Shown here: in pieces, positions 854-2,095 of the stretch
How positions within the stretch are numbered: position 1 is the first letter of the stretch
Layout: each line of letters begins with the position of its first letter
Assembly (NCBI GenBank): GCA_905182095.1
Contig: CAJJAQ010000030.1
Span: forward strand, 1-36,073
Length of the DNA: 36,073 nucleotides
Reading direction: 5' to 3'
Source: an uncultured Pseudomonadales bacterium
GTDB lineage: Bacteria > Pseudomonadota > Gammaproteobacteria > Pseudomonadales > Azotimanducaceae
Program-made: the position numbers and the translations under genes
The notes under the pieces: generated by a model
What the model was told of the DNA's origin: nothing
The model's input: the letters and a program-made list of their open reading frames with translations, nothing else
The model's database searches: none

Positions 854-960
854 AAAAAGGCGCGTCAGACTCAATTGTCTGAAAGCAACTCGACTTCGGG
901 GGGAAGGACACTGTAAGGAAGGGTGTTTTGAGTTGAGAGCGCGCCTGAAACTTGAATATG
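854..960 (-). ncRNA. Candidate small RNA with intrinsic-terminator-like 3' end
   Basis: Minus strand: -35-like TTGATT (994-989), 16-nt spacer, -10 TACAAT (972-967). GGCGCG (945-940) can pair with CGCGCC (864-859), which is directly followed by TTTTT (858-854); internal hairpin TCAGAC-AATTGA-GTCTGA (882-865). No convincing ORF. Confidence 0.35.
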
Positions 961-967
961 CAAAGAA

Positions 968-980
968 TTGTACAGTACAA
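968..980. promoter_or_regulatory. Inverted repeat TTGTAC-A-GTACAA, candidate MerR-family operator
   Basis: Perfect dyad read directly; same half-sites as the dyad at 2104-2117 next to the MerR gene start. Confidence 0.5.
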
Positions 981-1010
981 AATTGTTAAATCAACAAATA
1001 TTTAGCTTTT

Positions 1011-1078: not shown

Positions 1079-2095
1079 CTAGTGAGTCGAAAAACCATCC
1101 GGGCGAATGCCCTGAGACTGAGCTGGCGCTGCGGCTAACTGATTGTAGGTTGCGGTTAATAAGGTATCTAGGGCTGCTTCAAGTTGAGCCCTTGCTTGTG
1201 CCGTTTCCGTTCTGGTTTGCGCTAAGGCCTCTAGTGTCTCACGCTTAGCATCGCTGTCCTTAACTTCTTCTTCGCCAGCACAAGTCTGGAAATAGTCAGT
1301 TAATGCATTGAGTTGGTGTATTTGTTCAACTAAATGTTCGGCGCACTGGTTGGGATCTTGATCTTCTGCTGCGATGGCAATCAGTTCCTCGTCGCTAAAG
1401 CGACGAGGAACGCTGACGCCATACAACCTCGGCAGGCCAAACTCATTTATGCAGGTATATTCTATTTCGGCCCAGGACACAGGCCATTTCACTGTTGCAA
1501 CTTGCTGTTCTTGGCAGCGGCTAATTTGGTGAGCCGTGGCGAACTGGTAAAGCGTGACGATCTTCGTGTTAGGCAAAGCTTGCTGGGCTTGTTTGATTGC
1601 TTGTTCAGCCAGTACTGGAAGTTGTAAAACCAATACTTGAGGCGCATCCATTTCGCTTAAGGGGCTGATTTGTTCGCCCAGTTCTCTAAGAAAGGCTTCC
1701 AAGTTTGCCCAGCGCGACACAATGTCTAAACGTTGTTTGCCACTAACTCGTTGTTCTAATTGCAATAAATTGGCACCAATTAGGCCGATTCTAGGTGATT
1801 GGCCAACTAAATCTTGTACTTGGTGGTGGTCTTGACCGCTACCAGAGCGGGCATCAAGCTGCTCTTCGGTTAAGTGAATAACACTGGATATGGTTTGGCC
1901 CTGATCAATTAAGCGCTTGATTTTCTTAAGTATTTCAAGCTGATCTTTGCTGTAAAAGCGGGTTTTTCCGTCTTTATAGGCAGGGCTGAATTGATAACGC
2001 CTTTCCCATGCACGTAGGCGTTCAACGGCTATGCCCGTTAAGGATGCGACGCTACCAATGCGGTAGTAATCGTTTGTATTGCCTGAAGGTGTCAT
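1079..2095 (-). CDS. MerR-family transcriptional regulator with C-terminal Rossmann-like region
   Basis: N-terminal YYRIGSVASLTGIAVERLRAWERRYQFSPAYKDGKTRFYSKDQLEILKKIKRLIDQG is a MerR winged-helix domain. Likely start is the ATG at 2095 (MTPSGNTNDYYRIG), not the ORF start at 2128. Confidence 0.9.
   Translation of the reverse strand: MTPSGNTNDYYRIGSVASLTGIAVERLRAWERRYQFSPAYKDGKTRFYSKDQLEILKKIKRLIDQGQTISSVIHLTEEQLDARSGSGQDHHQVQDLVGQSPRIGLIGANLLQLEQRVSGKQRLDIVSRWANLEAFLRELGEQISPLSEMDAPQVLVLQLPVLAEQAIKQAQQALPNTKIVTLYQFATAHQISRCQEQQVATVKWPVSWAEIEYTCINEFGLPRLYGVSVPRRFSDEELIAIAAEDQDPNQCAEHLVEQIHQLNALTDYFQTCAGEEEVKDSDAKRETLEALAQTRTETAQARAQLEAALDTLLTATYNQLAAAPAQSQGIRPDGFSTH

Follow-up and report, generated by a model that had tools for sequence, protein, structure and literature searches.

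Does the gap between the convergent genes near the start of this contig encode an RNA of its own and, if so, what governs it and how might it act? An earlier note on the window (the whole stretch of DNA analyzed, 36,073 nucleotides) had proposed a small RNA (sRNA) under MerR control at positions 854–994 of the minus strand, and every element on which that proposal was built was recovered in its place. On this strand, promoter elements of the form TTGATT-N16-TACAAT run from 994 to 967. Further downstream, GGCGCG (940–945) pairs with CGCGCC (859–864) to form the basal stem P1, and the 3′ arm is directly followed by TTTTT (858–854), the U5 run with which it makes up the terminator. The internal 6-bp hairpin of the note, TCAGAC-AATTGA-GTCTGA (865–882; arms at 865–870 and 877–882), is now named P4 and is stacked on P1 within the terminator, and the C-rich stretch lies at 898–923. 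A second internal helix that the note had overlooked, P2 (CAACTC, 930–935; GAGTTG, 886–891), turns the RNA into a three-way junction consisting of the basal stem P1, P2 bearing the C-rich core, and P4, followed by U5.

The predicted RNA of about 105 nt spans positions 854–960 of the minus strand, its 5′ end near 960 being placed from the −10 box and its 3′ end in the U-run at 858–854. Its fold reached −27.1 kcal/mol, compared to −16.2 ± 2.8 kcal/mol for shuffled sequences (z = −3.9), and none of 200 dinucleotide shuffles equalled it. A covariance model matched positions 853–954, and the element was aligned across 50 sequences. In this alignment, inspected by eye and unscored, loop lengths differed by 1–4 nt and a common start codon was absent. 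No Rfam covariance model matched the sRNA at its gathering score. With its own promoter, an intrinsic terminator and an intergenic position, the element is almost certainly, as far as its sequence allows us to judge, a structured RNA gene that was previously uncatalogued and that would be tied tightly to a MerR-type regulator.

The intergenic region was detected by blastn in 29 of the 58 genomes searched (its own and relatives), all belonging to one genus; promoter and terminator delimit the conserved stretch, most matches ending at the terminator. The named close relatives form the K189A/HTCC2089 clade of marine gammaproteobacteria. Twenty-five of these sequences served to build a covariance model, which detected the RNA in 94 of the 207 host-family genomes, covering 18 of 37 genera, as a single locus in each positive genome except for one genome with two copies. 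In G501, near-identical merR–sRNA loci (L081 and L082) lie on separate contigs and may be an assembly duplicate. Wide scans of about 375 further genomes from the order and another 368 from the class gave no matches beyond the family; because the strict filters of such scans lose weak matches, the restriction to the family is provisional.

Among 49 distinct sequences, 95.7% of the pair cells were standard (99.7% of cells paired in P1), and 16 of 25 pairs showed double changes. These cover all 15 pairs of the inner helices, with compensatory changes in all 8 pairs of P2 and all 7 pairs of P4. By contrast, helix 3 (CUUC/GAAG) was conserved with zero compensatory change. The covariation score was 0.371 in this alignment, which was itself fitted to the structure model, compared to 0.131 for shuffled alignments and at most 0.072 for slid partners; an independent MAFFT alignment (n = 25) gave 0.204, compared to 0.092 and at most 0.084, respectively. 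The note would have abandoned the sRNA if relatives did not conserve the stem and the poly-U end; both were kept across 18 genera with compensatory changes, and the conserved structure, promoter and terminator all support its proposal. Strongly diverged versions of the RNA were also observed in genera g28 and g164 (L240, 2373–2463, minus; L243, 2366–2445, minus; L245, 1742–1821, plus), which retain a GGCGTG/CACGCC stem and a CUCCC-rich loop and have weak model scores.

An element located between convergent genes could instead be their shared terminator region, with no dedicated transcript. This reading is barely credible: the U-run is present on the minus strand only, the conserved core and P2 are unnecessary for termination, and the element has its own promoter, with conserved −35 box, −10 box and operator. 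In 30 of 47 loci, the window included, the gene that follows lies on the opposite strand and converges on the sRNA, from which we infer that the RNA acts in trans. We rejected on the same ground an equally far-fetched reading of the RNA as a cis-acting leader or attenuator of the downstream gene. It would suit the 17 of 47 loci with a following gene, often lipoprotein-like, on the sRNA strand, but the terminator is conserved whichever way the next gene points, and in the window the gene orientation refutes it. At several loci (L026, L017, L020, L022, L057, L072, L076 and L077) the next same-strand gene 3′ of the sRNA is lipoprotein-like; the genes at these eight loci carry an ACGGGGG signal region and might be targets or co-regulated.

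The merR gene (1079–2095, minus strand; possibly with a longer start at 2128) encodes a protein with a CarH-like helix-turn-helix (HTH). In all 50 of 50 loci, merR lies on the same strand as the sRNA, 50–280 nt upstream of it. Across the 207 family genomes, 91 had both the MerR protein (>240 bits) and the RNA, 108 had neither and 8 were discordant (Fisher p = 3e-48, a value that ignores shared ancestry). The discordant genomes comprise five with MerR only, in which the contig ends at or near the gene (G027, G500 and G566) or a diverged RNA is present (G335 and G565), and three with the RNA only (G011, G013 and G525), in which the coordinates suggest that merR is cut by the contig end. The HTH is nearest to those of CarH, CarA and LitR: NF052513 matched with 7e-12 over the HTH region only, far below its cut-off, and PDB entries 5c8d and 3whp matched the HTH, while Pfam and PDB profiles identified nothing beyond it. 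DxHxxG, a B12-binding motif of CarH, was absent from all 37 MerR homologues, as was Wx9EH. The latter is a motif of B12-binding CarH (PMC8156234). An AlphaFold model of MerR made with five sequences had a pLDDT of 37 and was discarded. The window's own genome holds a second, distant MerR paralogue (L136; G000:C121:11562-12437), near which neither the operator dyad nor the core motif was seen by pattern. A similar pattern check in other families of the order found MerR homologues with no core motif or operator dyad of this type nearby.

The promoter of the sRNA is of the sigma-70 type. Its −35 box, TTGATT, lies at 989–994 and its −10 box, TACAAT, at 967–972 (minus strand); an automatic hexamer scan found TTGACA as the −35 box in 31 of 52 loci. 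The spacer is 16 nt in the window and in 39 of 52 loci, with a range of 16–18 nt. In this single sequence, the promoter hexamers alone do not exceed chance (4 found, 3.1 expected); their conservation across 50 loci exceeds chance. The TTGTAC dyad that the note had seen over the −10 box (the TTGTACTGTACAA dyad) was confirmed and is the candidate MerR operator TTGTACAGTACAA (968–980, plus-strand coordinates), and TGTACWGTAC was present in 38 of 52 loci. The exact 12-nt TTGTACWGTACA occurred once per genome, at the sRNA promoter, in 12 of 13 genomes, and the thirteenth had a one-mismatch site at the equivalent place. One-mismatch sites beyond the sRNA locus were about as frequent as those of the reversed pattern, a background level that led us not to propose a wider MerR regulon.

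A second candidate operator element (1011–1027), upstream of the −35 box, consists of two TGTACA-type half-sites 11 bp apart; 34 of 52 loci have it with no more than a single additional mismatch. CarH operators have TnnACA half-sites with an 11-bp period that overlap a sigma-70 promoter (PMC8156234). The system described here resembles CarH and CarA in its HTH domain, its 11-bp repeat of half-sites fits theirs (PMC8156234), and its putative operator overlaps a sigma-70 promoter; their known targets, however, are protein-coding genes, here replaced by an sRNA, and the MerR protein lacks the B12 motifs. The arrangement also differs, in that the 11-bp repeat sits upstream of the −35 box and the element over the −10 box is a palindrome, unlike the CarH-type repeat. 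A further dyad, TTGTACAGGTACAA (2104–2117), lies just 5′ of merR, and a similar TGTACCTGTACA precedes merR in some relatives; this is a possible autoregulatory site. Taken with the invariable adjacency and the co-occurrence, the presence of the operator essentially only at the sRNA promoter supports the MerR control proposed in the note, which we regard as very likely on these sequence grounds.

Control could in principle mean activation by the classical MerR twist, since most characterized MerR proteins are activators and both the −35 and −10 boxes of the window are imperfect. We consider this improbable. Classical MerR-activated promoters have spacers of 19–20 nt, whereas those found here are 16–18 nt; the dyad is centred over the −10 box rather than between the promoter elements; and the −35 box is often a perfect TTGACA. 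Moreover, CarH and CarA, to which its DNA-binding domain is closest, act by repression (PMC8156234). Given the spacer length and a dyad that covers the −10 box, repression by MerR is the clearly favored, though sequence-based, reading.

The C-rich core of the sRNA contains two tandem motifs that are unpaired and almost fixed across the alignment of 50 loci. Motif A (913–923, minus strand) reads CCCTTCCTTAC, given as CCCUUCCUUAC in the window, and GUCCUCCCU in most relatives. Motif B (898–911, minus strand) reads GTGTCCTTCCCCCC, usually in the form GUGUCCUUCCCC, and is shared with phage RNAs (see below); GTCCTTCC / GUCCUUCC is present in 48 of 50 loci and GTGTCCTTCCCC in 38 of 50. Ultraconserved unpaired C-rich motifs among variable stems also occur, as anti-Shine-Dalgarno (anti-SD) motifs, in alpha-r14/NfeR1 and AbcR-type rhizobial sRNAs; one of these, NfeR1, acts at the initiation region of ntrBC mRNA and silences it (PMC10746234). 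Those RNAs, however, have three separate hairpins with CCUCCUCCC, whereas here one three-way junction carries two different tandem motifs, in another bacterial class, with no Rfam match and with a MerR-type regulator. The resemblance of the tandem C-rich loops to the anti-SD loops of NfeR1/AbcR makes translational repression the most likely outcome, and our analysis leans towards base-pairing as the mode of action.

At genome scale, the anti-SD idea in its simple pattern form was unsupported. The note had suggested that the C-rich stretch could pair with Shine-Dalgarno sequences, but GGAAGGAC located 2–12 nt before ATG was not enriched over the reversed pattern. The scan with GGAAGGACN{2,12}ATG gave 2 matches in the window's own genome and about the level of the reversed-pattern control in seven others, and the longer GGG form had 0 matches in the own genome. 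These scans covered one seed in a simple pattern form.

A search of IMG/VR with the core identified four contigs from two phage lineages, one comprising L254 and L256, which are 90% identical, and the other L255 and L257. The core matches lie in intergenic RNAs (L254, 9347–9461, minus; L256, 9215–9339, minus; L255, 5690–5791, plus; L257, 1587–1688, plus) among head and packaging genes. They carry GCAGUCCUCCCUUUCAAGUGUCCUUCCCC..GAAG or a close version of it, and the covariance model scored them at 26–37 bits. Their outer stem is unlike the bacterial one; reading of the L254 and L256 sequences showed that its pairing is kept via changes on both sides. Additional candidates from a relaxed viral pattern were rejected as true examples, their scores being below model significance, and L271 was judged from its sequence to be a chance match. 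INPHARED phages gave no significant match to the RNA, and no similar RNA was found on plasmids.

The near letter-for-letter identity of this core of about 30 nt (GCAGUCCUCCCU..GUGUCCUUCCCC..GAAG) between the bacterial RNAs and two phage RNA scaffolds whose stems differ would fit a different mode of action, in which the RNA gene and its MerR control are the same but the C-rich core binds a titrated protein (or another RNA) instead of serving as anti-SD seeds. The missing enrichment of SD complements also speaks for it. On the other hand, the tandem C-rich motifs resemble known anti-SD-type sRNA loops, the drift of motif A (GUCCUCCC, CUUCCUUA and ACUCCUUA) preserves complementarity to SD-like sequence, and the diverged RNAs of g28 and g164 keep only a C-rich loop (CUCCCUCCCCUCCCC), a pattern more in line with pairing than with a strict site for a protein. 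Protein titration thus seems doubtful to us, and base-pairing is the reading retained below. Tentatively, the core may be a portable module with one specific cellular partner, used by bacteria in a MerR-gated sRNA and by phages in a mimic or decoy that seizes or titrates the same pathway. A phage RNA known to disturb the sRNA network of its host is AgvB, an anti-sRNA of E. coli prophages (PMC4104026); AgvB, however, mimics the mRNA target, whereas the phage RNAs found here repeat the core of the sRNA itself. A core common to phages would give a concrete handle on how phage and host compete through regulatory RNA.

The model that we favor, with a probability of roughly 0.6, is that of a MerR-repressed, trans-acting sRNA with two anti-SD-like loops. 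The minus-strand gene would be transcribed from its own sigma-70 promoter into an sRNA of about 105 nt ending at the Rho-independent terminator. The adjacent MerR, a B12-independent relative of CarH/CarA, would bind the TTGTAC-type dyad over the −10 box and, upstream of the −35 box, the CarH-like 11-bp repeat, most likely repressing the sRNA until a signal releases repression. With essentially no other copy of the operator in the genome, MerR probably acts chiefly through the sRNA. Once released, it would expose its two C-rich single-stranded motifs and most likely block the translation of mRNAs whose G-rich initiation regions are complementary to them. In the VqmA–VqmR system of Vibrio, too, a transcription factor governs an sRNA gene (PMC13251380). 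VqmA differs from the MerR protein described here in being a DPO-responsive activator that is not of the MerR type. The vqmA and vqmR genes are adjacent, and we know of no relatedness between VqmR and this sRNA. If correct, the model would add a previously uncatalogued sRNA family in understudied marine bacteria, and its dedicated regulator, of the MerR type, would chiefly target an RNA instead of a protein gene.

Sister MerR genes in genus g24 (L237, L238, L239, L246 and L247) are followed by a different downstream sequence, which includes TGTACAGTACA in three of them and had no Rfam match. It contains several AUGGA/ACAGGA motifs, of which some sit in short hairpins when judged by eye, a pattern suggestive of a CsrA-binding RNA.
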